This document shows, piece by piece, positions 52,827 to 54,537 of a stretch of 64,000 nt of DNA. Made by a program: the position numbers and the translations under genes. The notes below the pieces were generated by a model that saw only the letters and a list, made by a program, of their open reading frames with translations, searched no databases and had not been told where the DNA came from. The stretch comes from Roseivirga sp. Its GTDB lineage: Bacteria; Bacteroidota; Bacteroidia; Cytophagales; Cyclobacteriaceae. Where the stretch lies: positions 1-64,000 of the forward strand of contig JAAWWF010000041.1 of the NCBI GenBank assembly GCA_021404565.1, given 5' to 3'. How positions within the stretch are numbered: position 1 is the first letter of the stretch; each line of letters opens with the position of its first letter.

Positions 52827-52925
52827 ATGAATAAAAGAATACAAAGCATATGTCTGGATTCCAGTCGCCATTATTTACTCTCAAAGGAGTGTGGTCTGGG
52901 ACGCTTGTGCTTTGGTAAAATATGA
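52827..52925 (+). CDS. Possible 32-residue small ORF upstream of a terminator
   Basis: ATG at 52827, TGA at 52925; product MNKRIQSICLDSSRHY... ending FGKI. It is followed 40 nt later by a strong terminator (52966-52989), as expected for a short transcript. A TAATTTTG box resembling the Bacteroidota -7 element lies at 52814-52821. The SICLDSS motif recalls HLCLSSD in the next small ORF (53240-53350). Coding status is uncertain; it could be a small RNA. Confidence 0.35.
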   Translation: MNKRIQSICLDSSRHYLLSKECGLGRLCFGKI

Positions 52926-53239
52926 TTCTATAGGAAAGAGAAACAAAAAACATCAAATATAGCAGAGCGTCCTTCGAAAGTTGGGCGCTTTTTTTATGTC
53001 GATTTCAAAATAATGAGCCGAGACAAAGCTAAATAACGATAGACCATTGAACGCAGAAACAATTGGGAGACAGACAGTTGTAAAATTCAAAAAAACTCAC
53101 CGTGAGTGGGGTGGAATCATATTGCCTAATTGAAACATAAATATCTGATTATCAACAAAATAAATCGGTTTATTTCTTGTTTTTAAAAAAGGGTGGTTTC
53201 AACTTTGCATCAGCAATAAACAGAATAATCAATAGAAAA
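52926..53239. other. Intergenic stretch between two small ORFs
   Basis: About 314 bp, AT-rich. It holds the terminator at 52966-52989, a small ACTCAC-C-GTGAGT palindrome near 53096 and a promoter-like TTG/CAACTTTG pair near 53178-53206. No gene is seen. Confidence 0.5.
52966..52989 (+). terminator. Terminator after the first small ORF
   Basis: AGCGTCC (52966-52972) pairs with GGGCGCT (52983-52989), followed by seven T residues. Confidence 0.8.
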
Positions 53240-53350
53240 ATGAAACTCATACATCGCTATATGGATCACTTATGTCTCTCCTCGGATCGACTTAGTTTAA
53301 GTTGTGAACAGGAACAATATTGGTATTTATGGGATGTTTATATGACTTGA
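53240..53350 (+). CDS. Possible 36-residue small ORF upstream of the tRNA array
   Basis: ATG at 53240, TGA at 53348-53350; the product begins MKLIHRYMDHLCLSSD and ends LWDVYMT. A promoter-like CAACTTTG lies about 35 nt upstream of the ATG, with a TTG about 20 nt before it. A terminator follows at 53382. The arrangement repeats that of 52827-52989: short ORF, short gap, terminator ending GCTTTTTTTATG. Coding status is unproven. Confidence 0.4.
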   Translation: MKLIHRYMDHLCLSSDRLSLSCEQEQYWYLWDVYMT

Positions 53351-53381
53351 GATTAAGATCAATAAAGAGATTACTCAGACA

Positions 53382-53406
53382 AGCATCCCACCAAAAATGG
53401 GGTGCT
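53382..53406 (+). terminator. Terminator just upstream of the tRNA array
   Basis: AGCATCCCA (53382-53390) pairs with TGGGGTGCT (53398-53406) over a 7-nt loop, followed by seven T residues. It ends about 20 nt before the first tRNA. Confidence 0.85.
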
Positions 53407-53430
53407 TTTTTTATGTGTAATAATTCAATC

Positions 53431-53504
53431 GGTGCCGTAACTCAATTGGCTAGAGTACTCGACTGTCTCTCGAGTGGTTGTGGGTTCAAGTCCCATCGGT
53501 ACCG
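53431..53504 (+). tRNA. tRNA-Asp (GTC)
   Basis: Full cloverleaf: acceptor GGTGCCG/CGGTACC, D-stem ACTC/GAGT, anticodon stem CTCGA/TCGAG with loop CTGTCTC (anticodon GTC), T-stem GTGGG/CCCAT with loop TTCAAGT, discriminator G as expected for Asp. No CCA is encoded. Position 37 is T instead of the usual purine, which is unusual. First gene of the array. Confidence 0.85.
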
Positions 53505-53531
53505 CTCTGCTCCGTTCGTCTAATGGCTTAG

Positions 53532-53565
53532 CCTGCCTGCACGTAGCAGTTTGGGCAAAGGCAGG
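53532..53565. repeat. CCTGCC-family palindromic insert in the D-loop of tRNA-Glu
   Basis: CCTGCCT (53532-53538) and AGGCAGG (53559-53565) form a perfect 7-bp stem around a 20-nt loop, inside the D-loop. Confidence 0.8.
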
Positions 53566-53598
53566 GAGACCTGGCTTTCTATCAGGTGATATGGGTTC

Positions 53599-53620
53599 CC
53601 CGCCTGACCGAACGGGCAAG
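53599..53620. repeat. Hairpin insert in the T-loop of tRNA-Glu
   Basis: 22 nt between C56 and R57 of the T-loop. CCCG (53599-53602) pairs with CGGG (53613-53616). It is a diverged relative of the CCTGCC family or a third type. Confidence 0.7.
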
Positions 53621-53642
53621 GAGTCCCGTACGGAGTGCCAAT

Positions 53643-53714
53643 GGTGTCTTTAGTTTAACCGGCAAAATACCTCGCTGTGAATGAGGAGAACAGGGTTCGA
53701 GTCCCGAAGACACC
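53643..53714 (+). tRNA. tRNA-His (GTG)
   Basis: Taking G53643 as G-1 gives acceptor GTGTCTT/AAGACAC with C73 opposite G-1, the histidine identity pair. D-stem GTTT/AAAT; anticodon stem CCTCG/TGAGG with loop CTGTGAA (GTG). The T-loop TTCGAGT is canonical, but only about three T-stem pairs form, so the gene looks partly degenerate. No CCA. Confidence 0.75.
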
Positions 53715-53716
53715 CA

Positions 53717-53758
53717 ATGAGAAATATGGCTTGTTCTTAGTAAAGCCAGAATTCTCAT
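53717..53758. repeat. Inverted repeat in the spacer between tRNA-His and tRNA-Gln
   Basis: ATGAGAA (53717-53723) and TTCTCAT (53752-53758) flank an inner GGCTT/AAGCC pairing. A long hairpin with no T-tail; it may be a processing signal or another mini-repeat. Confidence 0.5.
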
Positions 53759-53763
53759 GACAA

Positions 53764-53834
53764 TGGTCCATGGTGTAATGGTAGCACACTTGCCTTTGAC
53801 GCGGGTAGTCCTGGTTCGAGTCCAGGTGGATCAT
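53764..53834 (+). tRNA. tRNA-Gln (TTG)
   Basis: Acceptor TGGTCCA/TGGATCA (T1-A72 as in Gln), D-stem GTGT/GCAC, anticodon stem CTTGC/GCGGG with loop CTTTGAC (TTG), T-stem CCTGG/CCAGG with loop TTCGAGT. The discriminator is T, not usual for Gln. No CCA and no insert. Confidence 0.85.
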
Positions 53835-53846
53835 CAGATATTTAAT

Positions 53847-53922
53847 GCCCTGTTGGCGAAACGGCAAACGCGACCGGCTTAGACCCGGGAATTTGGGGGT
53901 TCGAATCCCTCACAGGGTACCA
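53847..53922 (+). tRNA. tRNA-Leu (TAG) with a short variable region
   Basis: Acceptor GCCCTGT/ACAGGGT, A73 and encoded CCA (53920-53922). D-stem GCG/CGC, anticodon loop CTTAGAC (TAG), T-stem GGGGG/CCCTC with loop TTCGAAT. The variable region is only about 5 nt, whereas bacterial tRNA-Leu normally has a long class II arm. Confidence 0.8.
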
Positions 53923-53938
53923 CATGCTCATGGTGGAA

Positions 53939-53960
53939 CCTGCCTTTGTTGGCAGACAGG
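53939..53960. repeat. CCTGCC-family insert in the D-loop of tRNA-Leu (TAA)
   Basis: 22 nt starting CCTGCCT and ending GACAGG, an imperfect palindrome (CTGCC/GGCAG core). Its removal leaves the normal D-loop GAACTGGCATA. Confidence 0.7.
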
Positions 53961-54002
53961 CTGGCATACACCACAGACTTAAAATCTGTGTTTTCCGGGT
54001 TC

Positions 54003-54020
54003 TCCCGATAATTATCGGGA
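54003..54020. repeat. TCCCGAT-family palindrome in the T-arm of tRNA-Leu (TAA)
   Basis: Perfect 18-bp palindrome TCCCGATAATTATCGGGA immediately after the T-loop TTC. Confidence 0.85.
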
Positions 54021-54063
54021 CTTGTGAGCATACTAGTGGCCTGTAGCTCAACGGTTAGAGTAG

Positions 54064-54081
54064 TCCCGATAGTTATCGGGA
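54064..54081. repeat. TCCCGAT-family palindrome forming the anticodon arm of the unassigned tRNA
   Basis: TCCCGATAGTTATCGGGA occupies the place of the anticodon arm rather than interrupting it; only a few other bases lie between D-stem and T-stem. Confidence 0.8.
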
Positions 54082-54094
54082 AAGATTCGAGTTC

Positions 54095-54114
54095 CCTGCC
54101 TGCCGGCAGGCAGG
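54095..54114. repeat. CCTGCC-family perfect palindrome in the T-loop of the unassigned tRNA
   Basis: Perfect 20-bp palindrome CCTGCCTGCCGGCAGGCAGG exactly between TTC and AATT of the T-loop. Confidence 0.88.
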
Positions 54115-54139
54115 AATTCTCGACAGGCCAACATGTAAT

Positions 54140-54226
54140 GGAGAGTAGGCAGATATTGGTTCGCTGCGCTTACCTGCTAAGTAAGTTCCCATTCGTGGGA
54201 TGAAGGTTCGATTCCTTTGCTCTCCG
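54140..54226 (+). tRNA. tRNA-Ser (GCT)
   Basis: Class II tRNA: acceptor GGAGAGT/GCTCTCC, D-stem GCAG/CTGC, anticodon stem CTTAC/GTAAG with loop CTGCTAA (GCT), long variable arm TCCCA-TTCG-TGGGA, T-stem GAAGG/CCTTT with loop TTCGATT, G73 as expected for Ser. No insert, no CCA. The best-preserved member of the array. Confidence 0.9.
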
Positions 54227-54230
54227 CTCA

Positions 54231-54313
54231 GGAGGTAGTCCGGTTGGTCGAGGAAGCAGTCTTGAAAACTGTGGGGCTTAATGGCTTCGGGGGTTCGATT
54301 CCCTCTGCCTCCG
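54231..54313 (+). tRNA. tRNA-Ser (TGA)
   Basis: Acceptor GGAGGTA/TGCCTCC, anticodon stem GCAGT/ACTGT with loop CTTGAAA (TGA), variable arm stem of about 6 pairs (54273-54288, several wobble), T-stem GGGGG/CCCTC with loop TTCGATT, G73. One base is missing between acceptor and D-stem (TCC/GGA). It follows tRNA-Ser (GCT) after 4 nt. Confidence 0.85.
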
Positions 54314-54318
54314 CACAT

Positions 54319-54391
54319 GAACATGTAGCCAAATTGGTAAGGCAGAAGTCTGCAAAACTTCTAACTGCGGGTTCGAATCCCGCCATGTTCT
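54319..54391 (+). tRNA. tRNA-Cys (GCA)
   Basis: Acceptor GAACATG/CATGTTC, D-stem GCC/GGC, anticodon stem GAAGT/ACTTC with loop CTGCAAA (GCA), T-stem GCGGG/CCCGC with loop TTCGAAT, discriminator T as required for Cys. No CCA and no insert. Confidence 0.88.
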
Positions 54392-54424
54392 TTCCGGGAG
54401 TACGCCAACGCAGGAGAGTTGGAC

Positions 54425-54442
54425 TCCCGATGGCTATCGGGA
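54425..54442. repeat. TCCCGAT-family palindrome in the anticodon loop of the Tyr-like tRNA
   Basis: TCCCGATGGCTATCGGGA, a near-perfect palindrome sharing its outer arms with those at 54003 and 54064; it separates T33 from the anticodon remnant. Confidence 0.82.
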
Positions 54443-54467
54443 TAAATCTGGTGCTTCGGCTGAGTAG

Positions 54468-54489
54468 CCTGCCTGCCGGCAAAGGCAGG
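54468..54489. repeat. CCTGCC-family insert in the T-stem of the Tyr-like tRNA
   Basis: 22 nt starting CCTGCCTGCC and ending AAAGGCAGG. Removing it joins GTAG to G and restores the five-pair T-stem. Confidence 0.82.
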
Positions 54490-54537
54490 GTTCGAATCCT
54501 ATTACTCCCACAATTAGTATAAAGGTAATATTTGCGA

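Follow-up and report, generated by a model that had tools for sequence, protein, structure and literature searches.

A candidate self-sensing tRNA back-up operon in Roseivirga, with short palindromes inside its tRNA genes

The tRNA array, its leaders and its inserts

A compact array of transfer RNA (tRNA) genes occupies positions 53431-54510 of a 64,000-nt stretch of Roseivirga sp. DNA (contig C7, positions 1-64000, hereafter the window) in a genome of 8.57 Mb and 81 contigs. Four of its genes are interrupted by short palindromes, which were the subject of the earlier note on this DNA. Upstream of the segment that the note described lie two short open reading frames (ORFs), each followed by a Rho-independent terminator, in the manner of leader-peptide attenuators. 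The array with its leaders is a more interesting object than the inserts. All features described below are on the forward strand. The two flanking genes that were scanned encode an ATP-binding cassette (ABC) permease and an amidase; a reading of the array as a mobile element was set aside in light of these two genes.

Eleven tRNA or tRNA-like genes are found, in line with the earlier count of about eleven. ARAGORN reads seven of them as intact tRNAs within 53431-54391: Asp(GTC) (53431-53505; Rfam 61 bits), His(GTG) (53643-53715), Gln(TTG) (53764-53835), Leu(TAG) (53847-53922), Ser(GCT) (54140-54227), Ser(TGA) (54229-54312) and Cys(GCA) (54319-54391; Rfam 72.1 bits). The Leu(TAG) gene is a short form of 76 nt; it lacks the long variable arm that is usual in bacterial Leu tRNAs. 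The four further genes bear inserts and were recognized by inspection of the sequence: a Glu-like gene (53509-53642), a Leu(TAA)-like relic (53926-54030), an Ile(TAT) relic (54038-54130), which had previously been left unassigned, and a Tyr-like relic (54396-54510), the borders of the last three being set by eye. All isoacceptors of the array are also encoded outside it in this genome (47 ARAGORN tRNAs in the regions scanned; 48 Rfam tRNA matches genome-wide), although for Ile-TAT the sole other copy is in a sister array on contig C11. The many clustered tRNA genes redundant with housekeeping tRNAs that characterize a back-up operon are thus present in this genome.

The first leader ORF (52827-52925; 32 aa, MNKRIQSICLDSSRHYLLSKECGLGRLCFGKI), a putative attenuator leader, was found by eye, its terminator being below the cut-off of the leader detector. 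A segment within it (52894-52906) is complementary to the 5' arm of terminator 1 (52966-52989; -12.0 kcal/mol, followed by a T run) and forms a duplex of -13.9 kcal/mol (p 0.033, 2000 dinucleotide shuffles). The second leader ORF (53240-53350; 36 aa, MKLIHRYMDHLCLSSDRLSLSCEQEQYWYLWDVYMT) carries such a segment near its end (53319-53340), and its duplex with the 5' arm of terminator 2 (53381-53407) reaches -16.2 kcal/mol (p 0.007 and 0.005). The window therefore holds two short ORFs with an intrinsic terminator upstream of the array, and at both the end of the ORF can pair with the 5' arm of the terminator.

All eight palindromic inserts reported earlier, two per gene in four genes, are present; each sequence occurs once in the window and is predicted to fold into a hairpin (-7.4 to -13.9 kcal/mol). 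The Glu-like gene has a CCTGCC..GGCAGG variant in its D-loop (53532-53565) and a degenerate hairpin in its T-loop, after GGTTC (53599-53621). In the Leu(TAA)-like relic, a CCTGCC variant lies in the D-loop (53939-53960) and TCCCGATAATTATCGGGA replaces, as judged by eye, the 3' half of the T-arm (54003-54020). The Ile(TAT) relic has TCCCGATAGTTATCGGGA in place of its anticodon arm (54064-54081) and a further insert, Ile-T, of sequence CCTGCCTGCCGGCAGGCAGG (54095-54114). The palindrome can be assigned to the former anticodon-arm site because the homolog in locus L112 (6936-7009), from another genus of the same family, is intact there. The Tyr-like relic contains TCCCGATGGCTATCGGGA within the anticodon arm (54425-54442) and CCTGCCTGCCGGCAAAGGCAGG in the T-stem, before GTTCG (54468-54489).

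The inserts had been assigned mainly to two families nearly absent from the other 63 kb. Within the window, the pattern CCTGCCN4-20GGCAGG does occur only at the array (40 genome matches, some overlapping, against 1 for the control), but strict definitions, P1 (TCCCGAT....ATCGGGA) and P2 (strict CCTGCC..GGCAGG), cover five of the eight inserts, three P1 and two P2. The remaining three, in the D-loops of Glu and Leu and in the T-loop of Glu, fall outside the strict families as longer or imperfect variants. Of the 8 copies of P1 (TCCCGATNNNNATCGGGA) in the whole 8.57 Mb, 3 fall within this 1.1 kb; its reversed control has none.

Leaders and sister operons in Bacteroidota

Pairing between leader and terminator extends beyond the window. 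The test compared up to the last 22 leader codons and the terminator 5' arm plus loop with dinucleotide shuffles (300 for the leader set, 200 for the off-array control). It was applied to 83 ORFs from 17 hand-entered regions and the detector output for loci L164-L239, with duplicates L160-L163, L177 and L187 excluded, overlapping ORFs that share one terminator counted separately, and window leader 1 not included. Pairing is significant at p<0.05 in 45 of the 83 and at p<0.01 in 15, as compared with 4 and 0 of 62 off-array ORF-terminator pairs that the same detector finds in 804 kb. Furthermore, the pairing segment and the terminator arm change together between lineages, as in GGTTCGGG/CCCGAGCC, CAGTTCGGG/CCCGGACT and GGCTTCGG/CCGAAGC.

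The residues of the leaders correspond to the product of the operon. Amino acids of the array tRNAs make up 20 of 31 post-Met residues in leader 1 (expected 0.46, p 0.03) and 26 of 35 in leader 2 (expected 0.46, p 0.0006). For both together, 46 of 66 residues fall among the nine array families (expected 0.46, p 8.5e-5), and 34 of 66 among the six families read by ARAGORN alone (expected 0.28, p 3.7e-5). A leader found by hand before a Pro-Gln-His-Arg-Ser array in locus L118 draws 16 of its 27 residues from these five amino acids (p 5e-6). The window and L118-like cases suggested the idea of a match between leader and array. A permutation test over 30 arrays was confined to detector leaders, which had been inspected beforehand, and excluded the window, L112, L113 and L118 arrays; the match is 0.372, as against 0.334 +/- 0.009 when permuted, a value reached in 0 of 20,000 permutations. 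The corresponding counts, each out of 20,000, are 9 for permutation within clades, 180 for the non-flavobacterial and 124 for the flavobacterial subset, and 1 and 7 once the four Roseivirga arrays are removed.

On C11, the sister array precedes a Band-7/slipin gene (Pfam E 2.4e-30), an ORF without a Pfam match, a tetratricopeptide repeat (TPR) ORF and RtcB (6.7e-79), so that here an array is linked by position to slipin and RtcB. Loci were gathered around the slipin gene, and the best 80 of at least 530 confirmed ones were analysed, three of them labelled as lying outside Bacteroidota (Thalassobius, Rickettsiales and Chlorobiota). ARAGORN finds at least one tRNA within 4 kb upstream of slipin in 45 of these 80, at least two in 30, and up to 16; these counts are not a frequency of co-occurrence, because the arrays were found through slipin. 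An RtcB match lies somewhere in 55 of the 80 loci, not always adjacent. Leaders were detected in 33 of the 80, from Cytophagales, Flavobacteriales, Bacteroidales and a metagenome-assembled genome of Sphingobacteriales, and also in a separately scanned Ferruginibacter locus. A YrlA-like Y RNA (RF02553) gives matches of 28.4-45.5 bits in four of seven loci scanned with Rfam, all below the gathering score of 69.

The arrays of these loci have further features of their own. Leu tRNAs upstream of slipin (L160-L239) measure 73-78 nt in 24 of 25 cases and are therefore without the long variable arm. A conserved RNA of about 110 nt, up to about 85% identical, lies between tRNAs of sister arrays (query positions 302-420 of the C11 array in L054; also L147, L148 and L152-L155); it carries palindromes in L147, L148, L152 and L154, and Rfam gives no match there in the loci scanned. 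Arrays of the C11 type are also present in R. spongicola (L152/L187) and R. seohaensis (L150/L162). A Lys tRNA gene of the C11 array contains a repeat of about 173 nt (query positions 853-1025 in L054), further copies of which occur in genomes G000, G007, G009, G011, G013, G014, G032 and others. In the Winogradskyella-type arrays L220, L224 and L227, ARAGORN reads a tRNA-Tyr with anticodon ATA adjoining tRNA-Phe. Two leader-tRNA blocks of the G033 array are separated by a protein ORF (L118:4490-4840).

Palindromes within and beyond the arrays

Homologous or similar arrays were sought in 59 relative genomes. Arrays carrying inserts occur in L113, L116, L118 and L121, where the hairpins were located by eye. 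In L113, from the same genus, they are in the His T-loop, the Ser-TGA T-stem and within the Cys anticodon; L116 has three in Ile and one in the Lys D-loop; Gln and Asp are the carriers in L121, and two genes carry them in L118, from another genus. Recurrent insertion sites are the T-loop after GGTTC, the T-stem before (G)TTC and the D-loop; the site of the Tyr-T insert, before (G)TTC, is used again in L113, L116, L121, L147 and L221. In L112, a stretch of Asp, Leu, Ile-TAT, Ser, Ser and Cys genes is free of inserts. This bears on a test set in advance by the earlier note, under which an insert-free array in close relatives, together with absence of transcription here, would speak against a dedicated system; the first half of this is seen, in another genus of the family.

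A uniform scatter with no preference for tRNAs, the second such test, is not what is seen, since the palindromes are concentrated in arrays and are often near tRNAs. P1 and P2 were counted over 60 array loci (20 plus 40 from L164-L239), with array borders entered by hand and duplicates L160-L163, L177 and L187 dropped; the remaining slipin loci were without a clear array. The arrays (122 kb) hold 34 elements, the remaining non-coding DNA (78 kb) 1 and the ORFs (461 kb) 2; some of these loci had been chosen for holding palindromes. The subset found by similarity of array or slipin (L147-L155, L164-L239) has 19 elements in arrays, 1 in other non-coding DNA and 1 in an ORF. The palindromes thus do lie inside tRNA genes at recurrent loop positions and are commoner there than in the other DNA compared, as had been claimed.

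Outside these arrays, 61 P1 copies in 60 sequence stretches were studied, with some genomes sampled in part (10 of 17 copies of G015 plus two in L125; 0 of 34 of G051). Of the 61, 15 have an intact same-strand tRNA whose start lies between -110 and +250 nt; the sequence flanking P1 is similar to the 5' end of this tRNA in 13 of the 15 (p<0.05). Most of the 13 have a partial copy of the tRNA just upstream, with P1 in its D-loop; in L293, one of the 13, P1 lies behind its tRNA and the resemblance may be chance. Partial 5' copies of this kind, 19-49 nt upstream of the intact tRNA, are seen in L241, L247, L248, L258, L259, L265, L275, L278, L284 and L298. L245 has a similar one by eye (p 0.09), and in the Roseivirga genome itself a partial Leu-TAA copy at L057:1316 bears a CCTGCC palindrome.

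Other structured RNAs also act as hosts. By Rfam, two P1 copies (L252, L287) lie in bacterial ribonuclease P (RNase P) RNA and a third (L297) in a cobalamin riboswitch. More generally, the sequences flanking P1 pair around it better than controls from the same locus (median -6.45 vs -3.3 kcal/mol, n=60, one of the 61 copies being dropped at a contig end; Wilcoxon p 1.6e-6). From these sequence data, the palindromes are read as repeats that probably nest into hairpins.

Interpretation and comparison with known systems

The locus is probably a back-up tRNA operon under leader-peptide attenuation, in which dispersed palindromes have nested in hairpins. Normal translation of the leaders would allow terminators 1 and 2 to form, leaving the array off. 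If a tRNA read in a leader became scarce, for example by nuclease cleavage, the ribosome would stall, the end of the leader ORF would be free to pair with the 5' arm of the terminator, and replacement tRNAs would be made. Of this scheme, the layout, the complementarity and the correspondence of leader residues with array tRNAs are seen in the sequence; stalling, switching and the stress signal are inferred. The sister array of the same genome and the arrays in front of slipin in other Bacteroidota seem to be arranged alike, some of them then followed by RtcB or holding a Y-RNA-like RNA. The inserts would be short dispersed palindromes of Roseivirga and its relatives that settle in the loops of existing hairpins, including D-, T- and anticodon arms, RNase P RNA, a riboswitch and hairpins resembling repetitive extragenic palindromic (REP) elements. 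Their abundance in arrays may reflect the many hairpins and the dispensable genes there.

In its broader form, which is somewhat favored, the proposal is that Bacteroidota possess self-sensing tRNA rescue operons. Leaders rich in codons read by the array would serve as a depletion sensor that releases a replacement set upon tRNA loss, such as that caused by anticodon nucleases of phages or rivals; some operons would add an RNA ligase and slipin, and hairpin-nesting palindromes would reside within the operons and enlarge their tRNA loops. If this is true, one phylum senses shortage of individual tRNAs by attenuation and responds by making spare tRNAs, joined in some operons by RNA repair. This would amount to a defence against tRNA-cleaving toxins that is directly testable, and would probably explain why extra tRNAs are retained as arrays in these genomes. 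In the palindromes there would be a natural record of tRNA loops that tolerate extra hairpins.

Several observations pull in the other direction. The ABC permease and amidase genes are the neighbors of the window array; neither slipin nor RtcB is among its flanking genes, and no RtcB was found on its contig, of which no slipin search was made. YrlA is absent from the window at the gathering score, the sole level searched. Moreover, 35 of the 80 slipin loci, including all nine labelled Pedobacter, lack an ARAGORN tRNA in the 4 kb upstream. A significant antiterminator is missing from 38 of the 83 leader ORFs, among them all three in L113; the set was unfiltered and contains some spurious ORFs and some that share a terminator. 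In a comparison of 29 arrays, for which leader ORFs were chosen by eye and one missed by the detector (L118b) was added by hand, six are at or below the expected leader match, among them Roseivirga arrays of the C11 type (0.14 vs an expected 0.17 in L054, 0.11 vs 0.15 in L161 and 0.10 vs 0.10 in L162). Of 33 leaders, only 8 have a -33/-7 promoter of the Bacteroidota type no more than 150 nt away (15 of 1650 at random), and the window leaders have none with the usual spacing. As for the palindromes, just 32% of those outside arrays are clearly nested in a hairpin (better than 95% of controls), and the choice of array loci noted above tempers their enrichment.

Pure decay, in which the array is a collection of redundant, decaying tRNA genes where palindromes pile up under weak selection, is unlikely, although it deserves some weight. 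It would fit the redundancy of the isoacceptors, the three window genes that look broken and the presence of the 173-nt repeat in the C11 array as well. However, the other non-coding DNA of the same loci is nearly free of elements, the leader, terminator and antiterminator of the window are intact, and similar arrays recur across the phylum. It is distinctly unlikely that the upstream ORFs and terminators are coincidental, representing the ends of upstream transcripts rather than attenuators. The leaders that fail the single-locus antiterminator test and the six arrays without an excess of matching residues are compatible with coincidence, but the rate of pairing in off-array controls and the permutation results, both overall and within clades, argue against it.

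The inserts might instead be functional parts of tRNA genes, such as mini-introns, processing signals or components of expanded tRNA-like RNAs, in a dedicated system. The recurrence of insert positions from one tRNA to another, and in arrays of distant Bacteroidota, is suggestive, as is the Glu-like gene, which ARAGORN reads as tRNA-Glu only once both inserts are excised. The earlier note held that removal restores canonical pairing in at least five cases; for whole genes this is too strong, as Glu alone is recovered, and excision yields no tRNA from the Leu-TAA, Ile-like and Tyr-like genes, three of the four insert-bearing genes, which look broken. With random excisions of the same length, 4 of 500 trials yielded one of the four genes; the other 496 yielded none. 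Across arrays, plain excision of a single element gives a tRNA at 7 of 34 elements, of which 4 are already read through by ARAGORN and 1 is of unassigned identity, and border variants raise this to 9 of 34; random excision gives a new tRNA in 12 of 264. The spliced-intron reading was rejected because excision restores just one of the four window genes, and the suggestion of spliced or processed RNAs is not supported. The insert-free array of L112 and the presence of these palindromes in other hairpins, RNase P RNA and a riboswitch among them, likewise tell against a dedicated system, which appears improbable. On the other hand, 5 of the 34 elements sit in genes that ARAGORN still reads as tRNA with an enlarged loop, and some hairpin-bearing tRNAs outside the window may still be functional. 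The earlier interpretation is thus partly supported: the inserts are real and recurrent, and most likely are dispersed palindromes in dispensable, hairpin-rich genes rather than components of a dedicated tRNA-insert system.

Movement of the palindromes as REP elements or REP doublets (REPINs) by a Y1 transposase, the REP-associated tyrosine transposase (RAYT), is very unlikely. Their size and palindromic form would agree with it, and CGTC, the tag of one REP superfamily (PMC3733652, as far as the consulted part of that source extends), lies within 20 nt of 17 of the 61 non-array copies, compared with 53 of 1034 controls, although 8 of the 17 are in a single genome, G003. At the foot of the palindrome, where a REP tag would be expected, CGTC lies within 2 nt of 1 of 61 copies and GTAG of 0 of 61; GTAG is not enriched within 20 nt either (6 of 61 vs 107 of 1034 controls). 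As judged by eye, Y1 transposases do not track P1 across the 59 genomes: G003, G016 and G005 have 10, 4 and 4 copies with no Y1 match, whereas G031 has 28 Y1 matches and no copy; the Roseivirga genome itself (G000) has 4 Y1 matches. RAYT/REP transposition was rejected on the absence of both a Y1 association and an adjacent tag. An origin at the RNA level, by ligation of hairpin RNAs into cleaved tRNAs (e.g., by RtcB) and copying back into DNA, would suit the predominance of tRNA loops among the positions, including the Cys anticodon in L113, and the RtcB gene of the sister operon, but is scarcely credible for elements that also lie in other repeats and outside tRNAs.

With attenuation of a back-up operon and nesting of dispersed palindromes as the preferred account, the locus can be set beside known systems. 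Rickettsial palindromic elements, REP/REPIN sequences and cyanobacterial small dispersed repeats are short dispersed palindromes inside genes, and the first of these had rightly been named as the kind of element to compare. The palindromes described here differ in being 18-22 nt long and located in tRNA loops or arrays, without adjacent GTAG or CGTC and with no Y1 link seen. The four exact palindrome strings do not occur in the literature text searched, and the literature searched, judged by title and abstract, has nothing on point regarding palindromes in tRNA genes.

Attenuators of the trp/his type consist of a short leader ORF, an antiterminator that overlaps the end of the ORF and a terminator, with leader residues that match the product. 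The present leaders share this layout and this match, but their product is tRNAs (with repair genes in sister operons), and they sample many amino acids rather than runs of one. No description of leader-controlled tRNA arrays was found in the literature searched, which excluded most subscription papers.

For the repair genes, the parallel is the Salmonella rsr-yrlBA-rtcBA operon, which responds to cleaved tRNAs (PMC7790460). To the extent covered by the consulted part of that source, such operons resemble the present ones in combining the RtcB ligase and a Y RNA with a tRNA-like domain in a response to damaged tRNA; they differ in that the operons described here have slipin, tRNA arrays in front and leader ORFs, with no Ro60/Rsr among the proteins scanned.

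The closest known system appears to be the silent, stress-induced trn operon of Anabaena sp. PCC 7120, which comprises 26 tRNA genes and responds to translational stress; TrcR is its repressor, and deletion of TrcR also raises rtcB and the slipin gene alr0740 (PMC10272220; this comparison rests on the part of the article consulted). Both are tRNA operons additional to the housekeeping tRNAs; here, slipin and RtcB adjoin the sister array but were not seen beside the window array. The consulted part of the Anabaena report mentions no palindromic inserts, and its main text contains no word that starts with leader or attenuat; control there is by TrcR, whereas the window has leader ORFs and terminators. 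The Bacteroidota arrays would therefore represent a known kind of response under a different, cis-acting control.

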